Assembly (NCBI GenBank): GCA_018658605.1
Contig: JABHUV010000269.1
Span: 1 to 26,022 of the forward strand
Direction: 5' to 3'
DNA: 26,022 nucleotides
From: Planctomycetaceae bacterium
Lineage (GTDB): Bacteria; Planctomycetota; Planctomycetia; Pirellulales; Pirellulaceae
A model generated the notes under the pieces. It was not told the DNA's origin, did no database searches, and worked only from the letters and a program-made list of their open reading frames with translations. The position numbers and the translations under genes were made by a program. Shown here in pieces: positions 15,847-25,353 of the stretch (position 1 is its first letter; each line of letters starts with the position of its first letter).

Positions 15847-17433
15847 TTATGCCGAGTCGTTGTTGGGTAAAGTTGCTGCAAGAGTGATAGCCCGTTCGAT
15901 ACGATTGAGACAGCGTTGTTGGCCGAGAATTGCAAGCGTGTCAAAAAGCCCGAAGCCGGCGGGTTTACCTGTAATGGCGATCCGTACGGGATGCACAACT
16001 TGGCCAAACTTAAGGTCGCGGTCAGCGATGAACTGCCGCATCGCGGCTTCTATGTTTTCGGTGGTGTATGATTCAATAGCAGCGAGGGTGTTCGTAAAAT
16101 CTCGCAGTAACTCAACCGCTTCGGCGGTATTAACGATTCGTTTGCTAAAAGCTTTTTCATCGTAAACGATGGCATCGTCGTCGGTGAAGAAATTATCGTA
16201 ATCTAGGATGTCACCGGCCACAGTCATTCGCTGTTCGCTCGCTGTAATGATCGAATTTACATAAGGTGCGGTGTCGCAGTTTGGCGGAGCGTCGATGAGC
16301 CCAGCTTGTTGTAAGTAGGGAACGGACATGGCTGTTTTTTGTTTTACGTCGAGTTGGTCCATAGCGCGTTGTTGGAACGCAGTCAGTTTTGTTGGATCAA
16401 AGCTGGCAGGACTTTTGACAACACGTTCTAGTGAAAATACACGGATCATTTCATCGCGCGTAAAGTCCTCAGTTTCACCGTCGAGTGACCATCCTAGCAA
16501 TAGTAGATAGTTGACAACGGCATTGGGGAGAAAACCGATGTCACGGTAAAAGTCGACGAGTACGGGGTTGAATGTTTCTGGGGCGAGTTGTTTTCCACAA
16601 ATTGTAGCGATACGACTGCCGTGCTCGTAGAGTTTTAGGAAGTCCTGATTTTTAAGGTATTTGGCTATTTTACGTTTGCTGAGTTTGTTTTTACTGCCAG
16701 GTTCTGCGACGTAAGGCAAATGTGCGTATTGCGGTAGGTCGTAGCCGAGTCCTTGAGCGATAAAGATTTGTCGCGGGGTGTTCGAAAGGTGTTCTTCGGC
16801 ACGGATGACATGGGTGATTGCAAATGCTGCATCGTCGACGACGCTTGCTAAGTGATACAGGCAACTGCCATCGGATTTTTGAATCACCATGTCTTGTTCG
16901 CTGGCCCATTGGAATTCGACATCACCGCGGATCAGGTCAGGTATTACGCAAGTGCCTTCGCGGGGCATCTTTAGGCGTACCACAGCAACTCGCCCTTCGG
17001 CTTCGTAGGCAGCGGCTTGAGCATCGGTTTCTGCCATCCAGTTACGGCTGTATAGATAGGAAGTACCAGCACCTTGAGCGATCTCGCGTTCCGCTTGAAC
17101 TTCTTCGGTGCGCGAATAGTCCCGATATGCGAGTCCCTTTTCCAGTAGTGTTTCGACGGCACTTTGGTAGTGATCACTCCGTTGTGATTGGAAATATGGG
17201 GCGCAGTCGCCACCGATCTCTGGGCCTTCGTCCCAATCAATGCCTAGCCAGCGAAAGCCGTCGAGGATTGGTTGTAATGCTGCGTCAACGTTGCGATTTT
17301 GGTCGGTATCATCGATACGGAGGATGAATTGGCCTCCGTGTTTGCGAGCGTACAGCCAGTTGAATAGTGCAGTGCGGACTCCACCGATGTGAAGGTAACC
17401 TGTTGGGCTTGGAGCGAATCGTGTACGAACCAT
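15847..17433 (-). CDS. gltX: Glutamyl-tRNA synthetase with internal insertion
   Basis: GluRS attaches glutamate to tRNA-Glu. The 528-residue class I enzyme has RFAPSPTGYLHIGGVRTALF (HIGG at 15-18, a normal GluRS variant) and KLSKR at 250-254. After KLSKR, most bacterial GluRS continue with a short H-G-A type loop. Here a longer segment of about 35-40 residues (KIAKYLKNQDFLKLYEHG to ETFNP, about 255-290) precedes FLPNAVVNYLLLLGWSLDG. From memory, planctomycete and some other GluRS share this insertion. The C-terminal helical anticodon-binding domain is present. It is the first gene of the leftward run and diverges from imuA across a 289-base gap. Nucleotides before the ATG are A/T-rich (TTTTAAAATC) with no Shine-Dalgarno. 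Confidence 0.96.
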   Translation of the reverse strand: MVRTRFAPSPTGYLHIGGVRTALFNWLYARKHGGQFILRIDDTDQNRNVDAALQPILDGFRWLGIDWDEGPEIGGDCAPYFQSQRSDHYQSAVETLLEKGLAYRDYSRTEEVQAEREIAQGAGTSYLYSRNWMAETDAQAAAYEAEGRVAVVRLKMPREGTCVIPDLIRGDVEFQWASEQDMVIQKSDGSCLYHLASVVDDAAFAITHVIRAEEHLSNTPRQIFIAQGLGYDLPQYAHLPYVAEPGSKNKLSKRKIAKYLKNQDFLKLYEHGSRIATICGKQLAPETFNPVLVDFYRDIGFLPNAVVNYLLLLGWSLDGETEDFTRDEMIRVFSLERVVKSPASFDPTKLTAFQQRAMDQLDVKQKTAMSVPYLQQAGLIDAPPNCDTAPYVNSIITASEQRMTVAGDILDYDNFFTDDDAIVYDEKAFSKRIVNTAEAVELLRDFTNTLAAIESYTTENIEAAMRQFIADRDLKFGQVVHPVRIAITGKPAGFGLFDTLAILGQQRCLNRIERAITLAATLPNNDSA

Positions 17434-17609
17434 GATTTTAAAATTTTCGCTAGTTGTGGTGACTGGGGCGTTTGGTGAAATAGCGTATTTACATTGTGTC
17501 AGTTGTCTATTCTATCGGGGAGTTCCTGTGGCGAGTATGACGTAGTCATGATTAATCGAGTTAGTTTATTGCGTTTTTTGTGCAGAGTGAAAAAAAATGT
17601 GCCGATGAC

Positions 17610-17637
17610 TTGACAAGGTAGTGTACGCATGTACACT
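17610..17637 (+). promoter_or_regulatory. Predicted promoter of imuA-imuB-dnaE2
   Basis: A perfect -35 box TTGACA is at 17610-17615. A -10-like TACACT is at 17632-17637, giving a 16-base spacer. Transcription would start near 17644, about 80 bases before the imuA ATG. The spacer and -10 box overlap the inverted repeat at 17617-17640, the usual arrangement for repression by a dimeric regulator. The call rests on motif matching only. Confidence 0.55.
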
Positions 17638-17640
17638 ACC
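17617..17640. promoter_or_regulatory. Perfect inverted-repeat operator, probable SOS (LexA-type) site
   Basis: Arms GGTAGTGTAC and GTACACTACC are exact reverse complements separated by GCAT, giving a 24-base site with no mismatch. It starts one base after the -35 box of the mutasome cassette and covers the -10. imuA-imuB-dnaE2 cassettes are LexA-controlled in many bacteria, so a LexA-family repressor is the likeliest ligand (inference). The core GTAC-N4-GTAC has the spacing of the Gram-positive GAAC-N4-GTTC box and resembles the cyanobacterial one, but it differs from the enterobacterial CTGT-N8-ACAG. Confidence 0.7.
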
Positions 17641-17722
17641 ATAGGCAGCGCAAATAAAACAGTGCCTTGCTGACTGTTATGAAATTAGAGTGATGAAAGA
17701 AGGAGTGAATAATATTTAATAA

Positions 17723-18532
17723 ATGCCTGTTTCCCAACAACATCAACATGAAGGACACGACAAACATGCAGGACATGACCAATCTGAACAGCAGGGAGAA
17801 AACGAGCAAAGTGATCAAAAAAGGATATTACAACAACTGCAGTACTTGATACGTGATTCGCAGCCAGTGGTTACTGCAAAAGTTGGGGAATCAAGTGTGC
17901 CGACGGGTTGGAAGCAATTAGATTCGATTTTGCCACATGGAGGATGGCGATCGGGGCAATTGGTAGAGTGGCTGGGCGAAGTTAAAGGTGGTGGAGTGGG
18001 ATTACTAGGACTATGGTCTGCTTGGCAAGTGGCGCAGCGTGGAGGCGTACTTGTGGTACTAGACAATACAGGCCAGTTTTTCCCACCGGCAGCCGCCGCG
18101 TTGGGGATCCACTTGAGTCGCATGTTGGTGGTGAGCCCTCAGGGTAAGGCAGATTTTGACTGGACATTGGATCAAGTGTTACGTTGTCGAGCTGTGGGAG
18201 CGGTATGGGTGAATTTGCCCAAAATTGATAATCGAGCTTATCGGCGACTACAGTTGGCAGTTGAGCAAAGTGGTGTATTTGGTGTTTTGGTTAGAGAGCA
18301 GAAGTGTTTACCGGATCCGACATGGGCACATTTACGATTGCATGTAACTCCCTTAGCGGGACAAGGCAATTGGCGGTTTCAGGTCGAGGTGATACGTGCT
18401 GTTGGTGGGAATACGGGAGCAAGTTGTGAATTGGAATTTATGGAAATCGCAAATCAACAGTGGTCTAAAAAAAATAGGGCTTTGTTAAACCCTGCAAACG
18501 AACCGCAAATTATTACTAATTACTTCCAATGA
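17723..18532 (+). CDS. imuA: ImuA-like RecA-related protein of the damage-tolerance cassette
   Basis: ImuA is a RecA-like accessory protein needed with ImuB and DnaE2 for damage-induced mutagenesis. This 269-residue protein starts with a hydrophilic His/Gln/Asp-rich tail of about 33 residues, then VPTGWKQLDSILPHGGWRSGQLVEWLG, the ImuA/SulA-like equivalent of the RecA core start. The Walker A region (GEVKGGGVGLL) is degenerate. GGVLVVLDNTGQFFPPAAAALGI and VRCRAVGAVWVN-like text (about 150-170) match ImuA proteins. The ATG at 17723 is the only reasonable start before the core; AGGAG ends 17 bases upstream, which is rather far. It lies six bases before imuB and downstream of the operator-overlapped promoter. 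Position in the cassette makes the call firm even though ImuA proteins diverge. Confidence 0.88.
   Translation: MPVSQQHQHEGHDKHAGHDQSEQQGENEQSDQKRILQQLQYLIRDSQPVVTAKVGESSVPTGWKQLDSILPHGGWRSGQLVEWLGEVKGGGVGLLGLWSAWQVAQRGGVLVVLDNTGQFFPPAAAALGIHLSRMLVVSPQGKADFDWTLDQVLRCRAVGAVWVNLPKIDNRAYRRLQLAVEQSGVFGVLVREQKCLPDPTWAHLRLHVTPLAGQGNWRFQVEVIRAVGGNTGASCELEFMEIANQQWSKKNRALLNPANEPQIITNYFQ
17745..17779 (+). repeat. Tandem 18-base duplication at the imuA 5' end
   Basis: The unit AACATGAAGGACACGAC (17745-17761) recurs 18 bases later as AACATGCAGGACATGAC (17763-17779) with two mismatches. The spacing keeps the frame and encodes two similar hexapeptides, HEGHDK and HAGHDQ, giving a short His/Asp-rich tract at the ImuA N-terminus. 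Confidence 0.75.
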
Positions 18533-18538
18533 TCTCCG

Positions 18539-20266
18539 ATGAAAAAAATAATTTGTATATGGATACCCGGTGGAATTGAGTTCACTGGCAAGGATGGGAC
18601 GAGTAAGGAGACTGGTAAGGATACCCGGTCTGTCGAGCGGCAAGTTTGGGAAACTCAGGATGGGATGTTCCAACTTGCTCGCTGGGCAAACCGCTATTCG
18701 CCACTAGTAGGTTTCCCCGAGTCGGTAAATTGGAAGCGTGAGTTAGCTGCTCAAGAAAAACGGGCTGCCGGCAAACATGTAGGGACTCAATATGCACATC
18801 AACCAGATCCCCGCGCTGCGGCTTGGAAAACGGAAGCAATTTGGCTGGATGTTACCGATGTGTGCGATTATTTTGGGACGGTGACAAAATTAGTGGAGCG
18901 GATCAGTAAAGACTTAATACGATTGGATATCGCAGCACGTATAGCGGCGGCAAGTACGGTTGGCGCAAGTTGGGCCGCGTGCCTGTACTTGGCGAATTCA
19001 ACAGTAAACCAAACGATAGTGTTAGCGACGGATCAACTGGATCAAGCGGCCTTACGGGAAGAACTTGGACCACTCCCTGTAAATAGTCTTAGGCTTCCCG
19101 CTACCGCGCTTGATGCTTTGGATCGGCTAGGGATCATTACTCTCGAACAATTAATTGGATTACCACAAGAAGCGATAGCTCAGCGTCTTGGGACGCTGGT
19201 TACTCAGAGATGCCAGCAGCTTTTTGGTCAGGCCGTTGAGCCGCTGAAAATGGTGCATCCACAGCAGCGGTATCTTTCCGAACAAGTGTTGCTAGGTCCC
19301 ATTGGCGGTGTGCAAATGATTGTGGATTTATTTAAACACGTGCTCGAACCTATTTTAGAGCGTCTTAGGAAGCGAGGTCATGGAATATTACAACTCTGCT
19401 GTAAGTTTGAAGTGTCACGGTACGGCCAGCGGGTTTATTGTAATGCGACTGCGAATGTTGGCTCCAAGTCCGTCGCGGCATCAGGTATCCACATCGAACA
19501 ATTTACTATTGGCTTGTATCGACCTACGGTTGAATGTTCACATCTTGTTTCATTATTTGAATTAGCTTGGGAGAAGGTGGGACGCATCGACGAGATGTAT
19601 CACATTTCCATCGAAGCAACCCAAACGGTAGAGATGCAAGAGGTTCAATTAGAGTTATTCTCGGATAAAGAATTAGAGCAACCTGTTGCAGGAAATCGTG
19701 AAATAGTTAGGGATCAAATTCCGCCACGTGTTTTATCGCAATTGATTGATCGTTTAACGAGTCGGCTTGGAAAACAACAGGTTTCACGACCGCAGTTGAG
19801 AGCGGAAGCTCAGCCAGAATTTAGTTTTGTAATGCAAGTAGTCGTCGAATTGGATATACAACGCTGGTGCAATCATGTTTTGCGCGCGGCCCGTAAATCA
19901 TTGGAAGCGAGCAGTGGGAATTCTCCGCCCATTACCTCTCAGAAAACACCGTACAACAGTCAACACTCAGGTTGGGCATTGGGTCAGCAATTGTCAATCG
20001 ACGCACGACCGTTATGGCACTGGAGCTCTCCACTGGAAATTCGATGTCACACTAAAAGTCGAACGGGTGCACCAATCCGTTTGTTTCATAGTGGAAGTTG
20101 GCAACAGGTGATACGTTCATGGGGGCCTGAGCGGATTGAAACGGGTTGGTGGCGGTCGCGTGCTGTGCGGCGAGAGTATTTTCGAATCGAAATTGATAGC
20201 GGCCAACGATTTTGGGTGTTCAGGCAACTGCCAACTTCACAGTGGTTTTTGCAAGGAAGCTTTTGA
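18539..20266 (+). CDS. imuB: ImuB, catalytically inactive Y-family polymerase homologue
   Basis: ImuB is a Y-family polymerase relative that acts as a hub linking the sliding clamp, ImuA and DnaE2. The 575-residue protein has a Y-family core from IICIWIPGG to about residue 355. It includes AIWLDVTDVCDYFG (ImuB-type palm) and the helix-hairpin-helix-like LPATALDALDRLGIITLEQLIGLP. The first palm strand lacks the metal-binding Asp of active polymerases, so no synthesis is expected. QLELF at 370-374, just after the little-finger region, fits a beta-clamp binding motif. The remaining roughly 200 residues are the variable ImuB C-terminal region. A polar insertion (about residues 14-40, GKDGTSKETGKDT) interrupts the palm. 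The gene lies six bases after imuA and 12 before dnaE2, so the three genes form one transcription unit. Confidence 0.92.
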   Translation: MKKIICIWIPGGIEFTGKDGTSKETGKDTRSVERQVWETQDGMFQLARWANRYSPLVGFPESVNWKRELAAQEKRAAGKHVGTQYAHQPDPRAAAWKTEAIWLDVTDVCDYFGTVTKLVERISKDLIRLDIAARIAAASTVGASWAACLYLANSTVNQTIVLATDQLDQAALREELGPLPVNSLRLPATALDALDRLGIITLEQLIGLPQEAIAQRLGTLVTQRCQQLFGQAVEPLKMVHPQQRYLSEQVLLGPIGGVQMIVDLFKHVLEPILERLRKRGHGILQLCCKFEVSRYGQRVYCNATANVGSKSVAASGIHIEQFTIGLYRPTVECSHLVSLFELAWEKVGRIDEMYHISIEATQTVEMQEVQLELFSDKELEQPVAGNREIVRDQIPPRVLSQLIDRLTSRLGKQQVSRPQLRAEAQPEFSFVMQVVVELDIQRWCNHVLRAARKSLEASSGNSPPITSQKTPYNSQHSGWALGQQLSIDARPLWHWSSPLEIRCHTKSRTGAPIRLFHSGSWQQVIRSWGPERIETGWWRSRAVRREYFRIEIDSGQRFWVFRQLPTSQWFLQGSF

Positions 20267-20278
20267 TAGGAATTGTAA

Positions 20279-23200
20279 ATGAACTACGCCGAACTACATT
20301 GCAAATCCAGTTTTTCATTTCTGCAAGGCGCTTCTTCTGCTGATCAGTTGGTGCAGCGAGCGATAAGGCTTGGATATTCTGCTTTGGCAATTACCGATCG
20401 TAATACCCTAGCTGGAATTGTTCGCGGACATGGTGCGGCCGTTGATGCAGAATTACAATATATCGTCGCTGCGGAATTAACGTTTGATGATGCTCCGCCT
20501 TGCGTTGTCTGGATTCGCAACCGTTCAGCTTACGCCTCGTTGTGTCGTTTGCTGACACTTGGACGCCGTCAGGCCTCCAAAGGTAATTGCCGTTTATCCT
20601 TTGAGGACTTAGTTTCTCATGGTGACGAGTTCCTGTTGGGCGTGATCCCTGATTGGAATCGGTTGTCGACGGCAACTATCTCGGATCATCACCGCGTACA
20701 TGCTGCCGCCAAACTTATCGACGCCGCAGATTTGCAACGATACAACGACATGTTTGGGGAGCGTTGCTATTTGCTAGCGGAATTACACCGCGGATCAGCG
20801 GATCTACAGCGACTTGATTCGCTTCAGAAATTGTCACAACAAACGCATGTTCCATTAGTTGCTTCTGGCGATGTTTACTATCACGATCCCTCGCACGCGC
20901 GGCTGCAAGATGTTCTCACCGCAACTGCTCATGGTTGTACCGTGTATGATATTGGACCCTATCAGTTTGCGAATGCCCAACGACACATGCGTCCACTTGA
21001 AGACATTGCGAAACTATTTTGCCAGATTCCACAGGCACTTCGACGAACTCGGGAAATTGCTGACATTTGCAGGTTCTCACTTTCTGAATTGCGATATGAG
21101 TACCCCGAAGAACTTGTCCCAACAAATATCACTCCAATTGCATACCTCAAACAACTGGCGTGGACCGGGGCCGACGAGCGATATCCGCGAGGGGTTCCAC
21201 GCAAGGTTATTAATCTTCTGCAACACGAATTGGAACTGATTGGGGAGTTGCATTACGAAGCCTACTTTTTAACGGTTTGGGATCTGGTTCGGTTTGCCCG
21301 CAGCCAAGATATTCTATGTCAGGGGCGAGGTTCGGCCGCTAATTCCGTTGTCTGCTTTTGTTTGGGCGTAACCTCGGTTGACCCAGATACAACTCAGTTG
21401 TTGTTTGAGCGTTTTATTAGTCGCGAACGGGCTGAAGCACCTGATATTGATGTCGATTTCGAGCATGAACGTCGTGAAGAAGTACTTCAATACCTGTACA
21501 ACAAATATGGACGCGACCGCGCCGGAATGACCGGTGTGGTGACTACCTATCGTATGCGTAGTGCGGTGCGGGAAGTCGGTAAAGCTCTTGGTTTTCCCTT
21601 GGATTTAGTCGATGCGATTGCTAAAAACCTAGATGGGCGTATTGCTGAAGGTGACCTCTGTTTGCGGTGCCGAGAAGTAGGATTAGACCCAGATAAATTG
21701 GTGGGGGAACGATTTATAGAGCTTGTGGAGATGCTGCGAGGAATGCCGCGGCATCTGTCGCAGCACGTAGGTGGAATGGTTATCACCCAAGGGTTACTTA
21801 GTGAACTAGTACCGATTGAAAATGCGGCCATGGATGGACGGACAGTGATTCAATGGAATAAAGATGACCTCGATGAACTGGGAATTCTAAAAGTCGACTG
21901 TTTATCATTGGGAATGCTTAGTGCGATTCATAAGTGTTTCGATATGTTACGGCAACACAAGAATCAAGAATGGACGTTGGCAACGATTCCTATGGATGAC
22001 AGTAAGGTGTATGACATGATTTGCAAGGCTGATACAGTGGGAGTGTTTCAGATTGAGAGTCGGGCACAGATGAGTATGCTACCCCGACTTAAGCCGCGTT
22101 GTTTCTATGATCTTGTCATCGAAGTTGCGATTGTCCGACCTGGTCCTATTCAGGGTAACATGGTTCATCCTTACCTGAAACGCCGTGACGGTTTGGAAGA
22201 ACCTTGTTATCCAAACGATGCAATTCGTGAGGTACTCGATCGTACGCTCGGGGTACCGCTGTTTCAAGAACAGGCAATGCGATTGGCTGTGGTCGCGGCT
22301 GGATTTACACCCGGCGAAGCTGACCAACTGCGGCGGGCAATGGGGGCATGGCGGCGACCTGGCGTGATCGAGAAATTTCATCAAAAATTGATCAAAGGAA
22401 TGTTGGTGCGAGGCCTGAGTGTGGAATTTGCAGAACAAGTATTTACACAAATTCGAGGATTTGGGGAATACGGATTTCCCGAGTCACATGCGGCGAGTTT
22501 TGCATTGTTGGTGTACGTATCTGCGTGGTTTAAGTGCCATCATCCCGCGGTATTTACGGCAGCAGTTATTAATAGTCAACCAATGGGATTTTATAGTGTC
22601 AGCGATCTAGTGACTGACGCCCGGCGGCACGAAGTTGTTGTTTTACCGGTTGACGTCAATTTAAGCGATTGGGATTGTACGCTAGAAGAACGGGTCGTTG
22701 GTACGAACCAGTCGAACAAACAGTTGGCTTTGCGATTGGGAATGAAAGTCGTTCATGGTATTCGCAAAAGCGACGTAATGCGAATCTTGAAGAACCGTGG
22801 CGGGAAACTGTACGGGTCGGTGGAAGATTTACGACGACGTGGCCGTGCTAGCCGATCGTTTATTATGAAGTTGGCGGACGCGGATGCGTTTTCGAGCTTT
22901 CAACGAGATCGCCGGTCCGCGCTGTGGGAAGCTTTAGCCCAAGAACGCAGCATATGTGAGCAGCCATTATTTGATCTAATCAATGCCAGTGATGACGACG
23001 TTCCGGAATTGCCCGCGATGCAACCTGCAGAGCAAGTAGAGATGGATTATCGAACCGTCGGTCTTTCCCTTAAAGGTCATCCGTTGATGTTCTGGCGTAA
23101 ACAGTTAAATGCAAAGTCGGTTGTTACGGCGAATCAGTTGGAAAATCTGGCCAATAATCGTTACGTGCGAATTGCTGGGATTGTATTGCTGCGTCAACGG

Positions 23201-23440
23201 CCATCTACTGCAAAGGGGATTACCTTTGTTACGCTTGAAGATGAAACGGGCACGATTAATCTTGTCCTAAAACAGTACATTTGGGAACGGTATTACAGCG
23301 TTGGTCGTCACAGTAACGCATGGCTAGTTCATGGGAAACTAGAAAGAAAAAGTTCAGTTATTCACGTCGTCGCCCACCGTTTGGAGGATCTCTCTGTTGC
23401 ACTCGGTAAATACAAGCCGAAATCTCGCGACTTCCGCTGA
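20279..23440 (+). CDS. dnaE2: Error-prone DNA polymerase III alpha subunit
   Basis: DnaE2 (ImuC) is the C-family polymerase that performs translesion synthesis in the ImuA-ImuB-DnaE2 mutasome. The 1053 residues are normal for DnaE2 and shorter than replicative DnaE. The N-terminal PHP domain starts YAELHCKSSFSFLQGAS. The palm has GRGSAANSVVCFCLGVT, then APDIDVDFEHERR with D389 and D391, and D540 in LKVDCLSLGML, the expected catalytic acids. The middle has RPGPIQGNMVHPYLKRR and GFGEYGFPESHAASFALLVY. A C-terminal OB fold (VRIAGIVLLRQRPSTAKG, FVTLEDETG) ends the protein. In the PHP domain, usual metal ligands are changed (HCK for HCH, TDRN for TDHD), so proofreading by this domain is unlikely. 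AGGA sits about seven bases before the ATG. The gene is last in the cassette and converges on the kinase gene. Confidence 0.97.
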   Translation: MNYAELHCKSSFSFLQGASSADQLVQRAIRLGYSALAITDRNTLAGIVRGHGAAVDAELQYIVAAELTFDDAPPCVVWIRNRSAYASLCRLLTLGRRQASKGNCRLSFEDLVSHGDEFLLGVIPDWNRLSTATISDHHRVHAAAKLIDAADLQRYNDMFGERCYLLAELHRGSADLQRLDSLQKLSQQTHVPLVASGDVYYHDPSHARLQDVLTATAHGCTVYDIGPYQFANAQRHMRPLEDIAKLFCQIPQALRRTREIADICRFSLSELRYEYPEELVPTNITPIAYLKQLAWTGADERYPRGVPRKVINLLQHELELIGELHYEAYFLTVWDLVRFARSQDILCQGRGSAANSVVCFCLGVTSVDPDTTQLLFERFISRERAEAPDIDVDFEHERREEVLQYLYNKYGRDRAGMTGVVTTYRMRSAVREVGKALGFPLDLVDAIAKNLDGRIAEGDLCLRCREVGLDPDKLVGERFIELVEMLRGMPRHLSQHVGGMVITQGLLSELVPIENAAMDGRTVIQWNKDDLDELGILKVDCLSLGMLSAIHKCFDMLRQHKNQEWTLATIPMDDSKVYDMICKADTVGVFQIESRAQMSMLPRLKPRCFYDLVIEVAIVRPGPIQGNMVHPYLKRRDGLEEPCYPNDAIREVLDRTLGVPLFQEQAMRLAVVAAGFTPGEADQLRRAMGAWRRPGVIEKFHQKLIKGMLVRGLSVEFAEQVFTQIRGFGEYGFPESHAASFALLVYVSAWFKCHHPAVFTAAVINSQPMGFYSVSDLVTDARRHEVVVLPVDVNLSDWDCTLEERVVGTNQSNKQLALRLGMKVVHGIRKSDVMRILKNRGGKLYGSVEDLRRRGRASRSFIMKLADADAFSSFQRDRRSALWEALAQERSICEQPLFDLINASDDDVPELPAMQPAEQVEMDYRTVGLSLKGHPLMFWRKQLNAKSVVTANQLENLANNRYVRIAGIVLLRQRPSTAKGITFVTLEDETGTINLVLKQYIWERYYSVGRHSNAWLVHGKLERKSSVIHVVAHRLEDLSVALGKYKPKSRDFR

Positions 23441-23538: not shown

Positions 23539-25353
23539 CTATCGCATACCGTTCAACTTTTCGATGGCATCCTCGATTAGCTGGAGCTCGTCAAGCAAGA
23601 ATTCTTGTTGCGAAAACAGCGCCTTAGCATTGTGCAGCATGTTGATAGCTTGTGGGTGATCGGAATTGGCAAGTTCTACGGCGGCGGTAACGATCCTATT
23701 GATCTCGTCACGATAATTGGCTCTTAATCGTGTCGTCATTTGGTCCATTTCAATCGATTCTAACTGGAAGTGTTTGAGTTGGAGTTTAGCGAAATCGACG
23801 CAGCGGACGGCATCTTTGTCAGCTTTGAAGACATCGTATGTGGCGATAAATGTTTCAAGTGTTACAACGCCCGCTTGTGGATCGTCGCTGGCAGTATTCA
23901 AAACTGAAAGCAACTGTAATTCTACCACTGACAACGCACCTGTATCCCTGGACAGTCTATCGATGTATTTTTGTAGATATCGTTCGGCAGCAAGCACGTC
24001 GTGTAATTGTTTGATTTCCTCATATTGATCATGGTCAGGAAAACGTCTGATGAACTCCTCCATCTCTGTATGCGCTTGTGCCCAATCTGAACCGGGGTTA
24101 ATCCTCGCCTGCAAAATATGTTCTAGTAACTCGTCGGCGGTGGCTGCGCGGTTGATATAGTTGGTAAAGGCAAATATTCCGCCGATAACCGCCAAGAATC
24201 CTATCGCGATCAGAATGCTCGCAATCACTCCTCGCTTTTGGCTGTCTTGTTCTTGGGCGTGCGTTGGGTCGACGCGCGTGAAATGGTTGTGACTGTCGGG
24301 GTCAACGGTTGTCGTTGGTACATCTTCCGATTGAATATCTGCGAGTGACAAGTCGTCGGGCGCTGCTCCAGTCTGATAGGGGCCTTTCAGTGTGGGATGC
24401 AACAGGGTTGGCGAGTTGTCTTCGTCAATTTCACCGCGAGTGAATTCACCAGTCGGAGCATTATCGTCGCAGGTTATTCCAGCATTGGTGTTGCTAATAT
24501 CGACAAGTGGATTGTTGGTTGTGGAAGGTAGTTTAGAATCTAACGCATGTTGCATGGCCTGTAGGCGGTGAATTATGGCCAGGGGTGTGGGCACTCGGTC
24601 ATCCGGATTCTTGCTGAGCAATTGACGCACGAGATGATTGAGTTCACGGGGAATGTCCAGTCTTAAATCAAGCAGTGAAGGCGGTGGATCATGTTGCAGC
24701 CTATGAATAACTTGAGCGATAGAAGGACTAGAAAACGGTGGCTTTCCCGAGAGCAACGCGTACATAACGGCACCTAGTGAATACAGATCGCTGCGCACCG
24801 TGGGGCGTTGGCCTTCGGCTTGCTCGGGGGACATATAGTCTGCTGTCCCGACGACGGCATGATCGGCTGTAAGTTGCGTGGTACCGAAAAGTCGTGCGAT
24901 CCCAAAGTCGACTAATTTCACGGATCCGGATGGGGAAACGATTAGGTTGGATGGTTTCAGATCACGGTGAATGACGCCGCGGTCATGCGCATGTTTTAAT
25001 GCATGGCAAATTTCGATAGTGATGCGGACAACATCTCTCCAAGCAACTGGCCCTTCAGATTTGAGCGTTTCATAAAGGCTAGGCCCGTCTACTAGTTCCA
25101 TGCTGTAGAAAAGCGTGCCTTCCTGCTCACCAAAACCGAATATTTCGACGATACCAGAATGATGTAGTTGTTTCAGAGTTTCAATTTCCAATGAAAATCG
25201 ATTGCGGAAATTCTCATCATCTGCGAAACCGACCGATAGTATTTTTACGGCGACAACTTCATCGGTGTCTTCGTGATGTGCCGCATAAACAAACCCCATA
25301 CCACCTCGGCCAATTTGCTTGTCGATGATGTAGGGACCAAGTTGTTTTAGCAT
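23539..25353 (-). CDS. Membrane-anchored Ser/Thr protein kinase with C-terminal helical domain
   Basis: This is a 604-residue Hanks-type kinase. The kinase domain (about 7-268) has the glycine loop IGRGGMGFVY (14-23), the ATP lysine K37 in VAVKIL, HRDLKPSN with D131, DFG at 149-151, and GTADYMSPEQ in the activation segment, so it should be active. An acidic, Ser/Thr-rich linker (about 272-372) follows. One transmembrane helix is at about 375-399 (GVIASILIAIGFLAVIGGIF). The C-terminal roughly 200 residues are helical and charged, probably outside the cytoplasmic membrane, and match no PASTA, WD or TPR domain I recognise. The family phosphorylates proteins in response to signals; the ligand is unknown. 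It lies 90 bases after the sulfatase gene on the same strand and converges on dnaE2. Confidence 0.94.
   Translation of the reverse strand: MLKQLGPYIIDKQIGRGGMGFVYAAHHEDTDEVVAVKILSVGFADDENFRNRFSLEIETLKQLHHSGIVEIFGFGEQEGTLFYSMELVDGPSLYETLKSEGPVAWRDVVRITIEICHALKHAHDRGVIHRDLKPSNLIVSPSGSVKLVDFGIARLFGTTQLTADHAVVGTADYMSPEQAEGQRPTVRSDLYSLGAVMYALLSGKPPFSSPSIAQVIHRLQHDPPPSLLDLRLDIPRELNHLVRQLLSKNPDDRVPTPLAIIHRLQAMQHALDSKLPSTTNNPLVDISNTNAGITCDDNAPTGEFTRGEIDEDNSPTLLHPTLKGPYQTGAAPDDLSLADIQSEDVPTTTVDPDSHNHFTRVDPTHAQEQDSQKRGVIASILIAIGFLAVIGGIFAFTNYINRAATADELLEHILQARINPGSDWAQAHTEMEEFIRRFPDHDQYEEIKQLHDVLAAERYLQKYIDRLSRDTGALSVVELQLLSVLNTASDDPQAGVVTLETFIATYDVFKADKDAVRCVDFAKLQLKHFQLESIEMDQMTTRLRANYRDEINRIVTAAVELANSDHPQAINMLHNAKALFSQQEFLLDELQLIEDAIEKLNGMR

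Follow-up and report, generated by a model that had tools for sequence, protein, structure and literature searches.

A predicted LexA operator within the promoter of a planctomycete imuA-imuB-dnaE2 cassette, and its counterparts at SOS genes of related genomes

The window analysed here, a stretch of planctomycete DNA of 26,022 bases, carries between gltX and imuA an inverted repeat that is very probably an operator at which LexA would repress imuA-imuB-dnaE2 (Table 1). We favour this reading, which rests on sequence comparison, because the same box is found at lexA, recA and imuA in related planctomycetes. In the mechanism that we propose, a LexA dimer would bind the two TGTAC half-sites and block RNA polymerase at the imuA promoter; after DNA damage, RecA filaments would trigger the self-cleavage of LexA, the operator would be freed and the mutagenic polymerase cassette would be made. 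The prediction is that mutagenic DNA synthesis is damage-inducible in these bacteria. The LexA binding site has changed many times. With a defined motif, one could predict from sequence how the SOS response of a whole bacterial order is organised, and a LexA core like that of cyanobacteria would be placed in a phylum far from them.

Table 1. Coordinates of the cassette, its divergent neighbour and the predicted control elements in the window
Feature	Position	Strand	Basis
gltX, divergent neighbour	15847..17433	-	TIGR00464, 448 bits
-35-like hexamer TTGACA	17610..17615	+	consensus match
predicted LexA operator, inverted repeat GGTAGTGTAC-GCAT-GTACACTACC	17617..17640	not assigned (dyad)	arms and score under the lexA-trained matrix
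-10-like hexamer TACACT, within the right arm of the operator	17632..17637	+	consensus match
imuA (RecA-like, ImuA)	17723..18532	+	NCBIfam NF033429, E 9.5e-31, below curated cut-off
imuB (divergent Y-family-like protein)	18539..20266	+	weak match to DNA polymerase IV, E 1.1e-5; position
dnaE2, error-prone DNA polymerase	20279..23440	+	NF004225, 1408.5 bits, above cut-off

The three genes lie in one run with the make-up of an ImuA-ImuB-DnaE2 mutasome cassette, in which DnaE2 is strongly matched, ImuA stays under its curated cut-off and ImuB is weakly matched. No Pfam family was found for imuB, and its assignment is supported by tblastn matches in relatives that fall between imuA and dnaE2. The DnaE2 of the window is closest to that of a Rhodopirellula MAG (65%), followed by other planctomycete MAGs, several of them Pirellulales, and the host is therefore likely a member of that order. 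Its ImuA is 86% identical to that of genome G353 and 89% to that of G357, which by this measure are the two closest relatives. The gltX/imuA arrangement is common to the window and the loci L001 and L198 (the GltX of L198 was read by eye), and in L198, from genome G242, gltX, a TTGACA and TAGTGTACATATGTACACTA are kept at the same intergenic place. A lexA-imuA-imuB-dnaE2 SOS cassette is known from proteobacteria; the order imuA-imuB-dnaE2 is the same in the window, but no lexA adjoins the cassette there. A gene for a serine/threonine protein kinase that is extended at its C-terminus (23539-25353, minus strand) lies convergent to dnaE2.

The element between gltX and imuA had been described in the first-pass annotation as a perfect 24-base palindrome. 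Its two 10-nt arms are indeed 100% complementary around GCAT, but this 4-nt spacer is not self-complementary, and the element is therefore an inverted repeat with a spacer. The string GTGTAC-N4-GTACAC occurs exactly once in the window. With three mismatches allowed there are 7 matches where 7.35 are expected by chance, and therefore the exact site alone stands out. Under a 20-wide matrix derived from the lexA promoters of genomes other than that of the window, the repeat scores 22.2 of a maximum of 26.2 bits, while the runner-up among all window positions reaches 11.2 bits; under an independent-base model the per-position chance of such a score is about 6e-9.

The TTGACA and TACACT hexamers proposed around the repeat are both present, with a 16-nt spacer. 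The resulting promoter, recognised by consensus match, points to imuA, and a dyad-symmetric site overlaps it at the -10, a geometry looked for in a LexA operator (SOS box). We extended this comparison to 48 imuA sites, the window included, each scoring at least 12 bits. Just 5′ of the box, a match of at least 5/6 to TTGACA was present in 34 of the 48, and random 19-mers from the same DNA gave such a match in 6.5% of cases. The spacer from the TTGACA-like hexamer to the box-borne hexamer was 16-17 nt in 31 of those 34 sites, and TACACT itself occupied the -10 place of the box in 18 of the 48. By its place over the -10 of a promoter of conventional type, the predicted operator would fit repression by occlusion. 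Co-variation between the arms was also tried on the 48 imuA sites as proof of selection on the dyad and was abandoned, as half-positions 8 (p 0.001) and 14 (p 0.0055) were the only two to exceed shuffles at p<0.01 and the remaining 18 of 20 did not.

The motif was then derived from 117 genomes of the order, whose identity as Pirellulales is inferred from the best matches of DnaE2. These gave 90 matches for ImuA (some of them RecA cross-matches only), 113 for lexA and 113 for recA, and the best-scoring 30 loci were used for each gene; one imuA locus (L108) with 8 nt of upstream DNA was dropped, leaving 29. A palindrome-constrained search without a seed was run separately on each gene set. At width 18 it returned AnTgTACatatGTAcAnT from the imuA promoters and anTgTACanntGTAcAnt from the lexA promoters, and at width 22 it returned atAgTgtaCanntGtacAcTat from the recA promoters. 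TGTAC-N4-GTACA was thus obtained separately from imuA and lexA and, at widths 20-22, from recA; at widths 16 and 18 the recA search gave an unrelated motif instead. For scoring, the 30 lexA promoters (250 bp) alone served to train a 20-wide matrix, which was applied with a threshold of at least 12 bits. A further set of relatives of G242 comprised imuA in 27 newly fetched loci and lexA and recA in 11 chosen genomes. The counts that follow are not independent, since the loci are the best-scoring ones and not a random draw, all are related and some genomes belong to more than one set; longer upstream windows also raise chance matches somewhat.

Within 250 bp upstream of lexA, 26 of the 30 training loci of the order reached 12 bits, as did 10 of 11 further lexA promoters from the relatives (300 bp). 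For imuA, which took no part in the training, the threshold was reached in 25/29 loci of the order within 250 bp and in 27/29 within 400 bp, and among the relatives of G242 in 19/27 within 500 bp and 20/27 within 700 bp. The recA promoters of the order reached it in 17 of 30 cases within 250 bp and in 25 of 30 within 400 bp, and those of the relatives in 5/10 within 300 bp and 10/10 within 450 bp. By contrast with these counts, none of 30 upstream regions of dnaA (order, 400 bp), the one unrelated gene whose promoters were scored, did so. DNA downstream of genes gave 0/89, coding pieces 1/176 and dinucleotide shuffles 6/1780. In the two closest relatives, the box was found upstream of imuA (TGGTGTACATATGTACACTA, 22.6 bits) and lexA (AAGTGTACGGATGTACATTA, 21.3 bits) in G357, where nothing beyond the ImuA cross-match was found for recA, and upstream of imuA (18.8 bits), lexA (21.3 bits) and recA (14.9 bits, at -439) in G353. 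The check suggested with the first annotation, to look for the motif before lexA, before recA and before further imuA cassettes, therefore found it in relatives. The proposal that the GTAC-N4-GTAC core may define the LexA motif of the lineage is supported in that the box recurs at SOS genes, but the exact string GTGTAC-N4-GTACAC turned out to be one form of a looser box, approximately TRTAC-N4-GTAYA.

Named planctomycete MAGs and loci gave a similar picture. Eight of 13 lexA-like genes from such MAGs reached 12 bits within 300 bp (L087, L090, L091, L092 and L093 were below), and so did 8 of 10 loci with an imuA match within 400 bp (L009 and L034 were below). When the DNA upstream of imuA was read directly in nine planctomycete loci, TAC-N4-GTA was seen in seven and TAA-N4-GTA in L001, while in the ninth, L009, imuA is immediately preceded by a lexA-like gene, a point of resemblance to the proteobacterial cassette. 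This divergent lexA-like gene (L009 3150-3474, and L092) belongs to an Isosphaeraceae MAG. The best matrix score before it is 9.5 bits, and it is possibly a second LexA with a site of its own. An exact GTAC-N4-GTAC proved too strict as a lineage motif, since 11 of 12 planctomycete loci lack it, and a matrix was needed. A box common to the whole phylum was likewise discarded, since no more than 5 of 29 additional lexA promoters reached 12 bits, and we make no claim for the phylum. Among these further LexAs, 2 of the 4 with an SPNGVMCH helix have a promoter of at least 12 bits, as do 3 of the other 25; L214, one of these 3, fits CTGT-N8-ACAG as well.

Some further features of these upstream regions were noted. 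In six of 30 recA loci (L156, L163, L165, L166, L169 and L182), two dyads of the same type overlap, for example AGTGTACGCCGATACAGTATACTGTCGTACAG, which suggests putative tandem LexA sites. GCTAGC, considered as a companion of the imuA box, was rejected as not specific, being present in 14/29 imuA but also in 16/30 dnaA upstream regions; it occurred in 1 of 30 nrdJ upstream regions from the Pirellulales loci.

LexA exceeded the family cut-off in 110 of the 117 genomes of the order. We aligned LexA to solved LexA structures and examined 41 LexAs, 30 of the order and 11 of the relatives, for sequence motifs. The SPNGV helix, the AG cleavage motif and the GxSM motif were present in all 41 and the lysine motif in 40. 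In relatives, the host lineage encodes a cleavable LexA by these cleavage and catalytic motifs (40-41 of 41), and lexA lies mostly elsewhere in the genome, not beside the imuA cassette. Four genomes of the order gave no lexA match, and boxes are still present in three of them: at imuA in G075 and G076, and at recA and nrdJ in G112. Missing contigs would be the simplest explanation for the absent lexA in these box-bearing genomes.

We compared the box with known LexA sites. The GTAC-N4-GTAC core had been put forward as matching neither the enterobacterial nor the classic Gram-positive box; this is correct, but the core is not unprecedented, as the accessible text of PMC3091678 gives the cyanobacterial LexA box as RGTACNNNDGTWCB or AGTACWNWTGTACT, with the same core and spacing as in the window. 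According to the same text, the recA site of Prochlorococcus MIT9515, AGTACGCATGTACT, has the inner 12 bases of the window site, GTACGCATGTAC. The base before GTAC differs: it is A (or R) in the cyanobacterial box as described there, whereas the imuA sites here carry T or G, with A at the aligned position in only 1 of 48 left arms. The window has TGTAC, not the cyanobacterial-type RGTAC with R mostly A, and its arms are longer and symmetric (TAGTGTAC) compared with the cyanobacterial box in that description. The B. subtilis box, CGAAC-N4-GTTCG in the available portions of PMC3091678 and PMC2248561, shares the xAC-N4-GTx spacing, but the main half-site here is TGTAC or GATAC, not CGAAC; mixed GTTC and GTAC/GTAT half-sites occur at some planctomycete sites, such as L099 and L344. 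The enterobacterial box, given as CTGT-N8-ACAG in the accessible part of PMC8565304, is likewise palindromic and placed at SOS promoters but differs in half-site and spacing. The available text of PMC3108266 states, with reference to another paper, that the E. coli motif is not recognised by the LexA of planctomycetes. Several LexA motifs are named in PMC8565304, and 'planctomyc' does not appear in its main text as available. No planctomycete LexA motif was found in the literature searched, and papers outside that search could have one. Three things look new: the box is assigned to planctomycetes, T or G replaces A next to the core, and the regulon, as predicted, extends to a B12-dependent ribonucleotide reductase.

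The box is missing from some of the expected promoters (imuA in 2/29 loci within 400 bp and 7/27 within 700 bp, recA in 5/30 within 400 bp), which we count against LexA control. We also considered other explanations. Deinococcus is known for a DdrO-like repressor that an IrrE-like peptidase cleaves, and a damage-responsive regulator of this or another kind, distinct from LexA, might bind the box and have lexA, recA and imuA as its targets. Such a regulator would agree with the two of 23 exact sites (described below) that adjoin Peptidase_M78/IrrE-like genes, in L184 and L199, and with the three box-bearing genomes that gave no lexA match. These genomes may, however, be incomplete, the box stands at lexA itself in most lexA loci of the order and of the relatives, as autoregulation would give, and its core is that of cyanobacterial LexA boxes as far as these are described in the text cited above. 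We consider this other regulator very unlikely.

Still less likely is a repeat that serves no regulator at all, either as an RNA or transcription-termination hairpin or as a chance palindrome. A hairpin could form from these exact 10-nt arms, separated by a loop of 4 nt. Against this reading, the repeat extends over the -10, a search of 17400-17800 found no terminator-like site, and unlinked SOS genes carry the box again, less strict in its arms but with the same core. It is least likely of all, and hardly credible, that the operator serves the divergent gltX and not imuA. The repeat does lie within the intergenic region shared by the two genes; however, 184 bp separate it from the gltX start, and the promoter that it overlaps is directed to imuA. 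Moreover, of 12 planctomycete loci only L001 has a gltX match (L002, L005 and L010 have too little upstream DNA to tell), while 8 of the 10 loci that gave an imuA match have the box at that gene. The reading of the repeat as the operator through which LexA would control the cassette remains the one that we prefer.

We further looked for exact sites at a genome-wide scale. Of 246 genomes, 16 contain TANTGTACN4GTACANTA, where its reversed control gave 1, and 5 of these 16 sites are at imuA and 1 at nrdJ. Of 117 genomes, 8 contain AGTGTACN4GTACACT, where the control again gave 1, with 4 sites at nrdJ; as half of its sites lie without a plausible SOS target, this string was rejected as a genome-wide SOS marker. 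The two lists overlap at one site (G109), which leaves 23 distinct sites: 5 at imuA, 5 at nrdJ, 2 at Peptidase_M78/IrrE-like genes, 1 at a DUF5131 gene and 1 about 420 nt before ruvC, while no target could be named for 9 of the 23. The candidate targets besides imuA and nrdJ are to be taken as leads only. For nrdJ, which encodes the class II (B12-dependent) ribonucleotide reductase, 14 of 30 upstream regions of the order reached 12 bits within 400 bp.

An IrrE-type protease class is known from the radiation response of Deinococcus. We put forward, as a tentative proposal that we hold to be possible rather than probable, that Pirellulales have a LexA with an SPNGV-[MV]-[CG]-H recognition helix and a -10-embedded box TAGTGTAC-N4-GTACACTA, and that its SOS regulon, not charted so far, adds to lexA, recA and the mutasome a B12-dependent ribonucleotide reductase and an IrrE-type metallopeptidase. 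If true, this would link LexA control to the protease class of the Deinococcus response. Among individual loci, LexA-like boxes were seen upstream of class II ribonucleotide reductase genes in L185-L188, L196 and L294-L323. L184 and L199 have an exact LexA-like box (site at 1501) beside a Peptidase_M78 gene (IrrE N-terminal-like), with a rimO-like gene, recognised by eye, on the opposite side. In L204, L205 and L206, a gene for a conserved protein of about 380 aa with GHG and DDCYSAD motifs lies beside the box, with the imuA match on the other side in all three; read by eye, this protein is perhaps a caspase-like peptidase.
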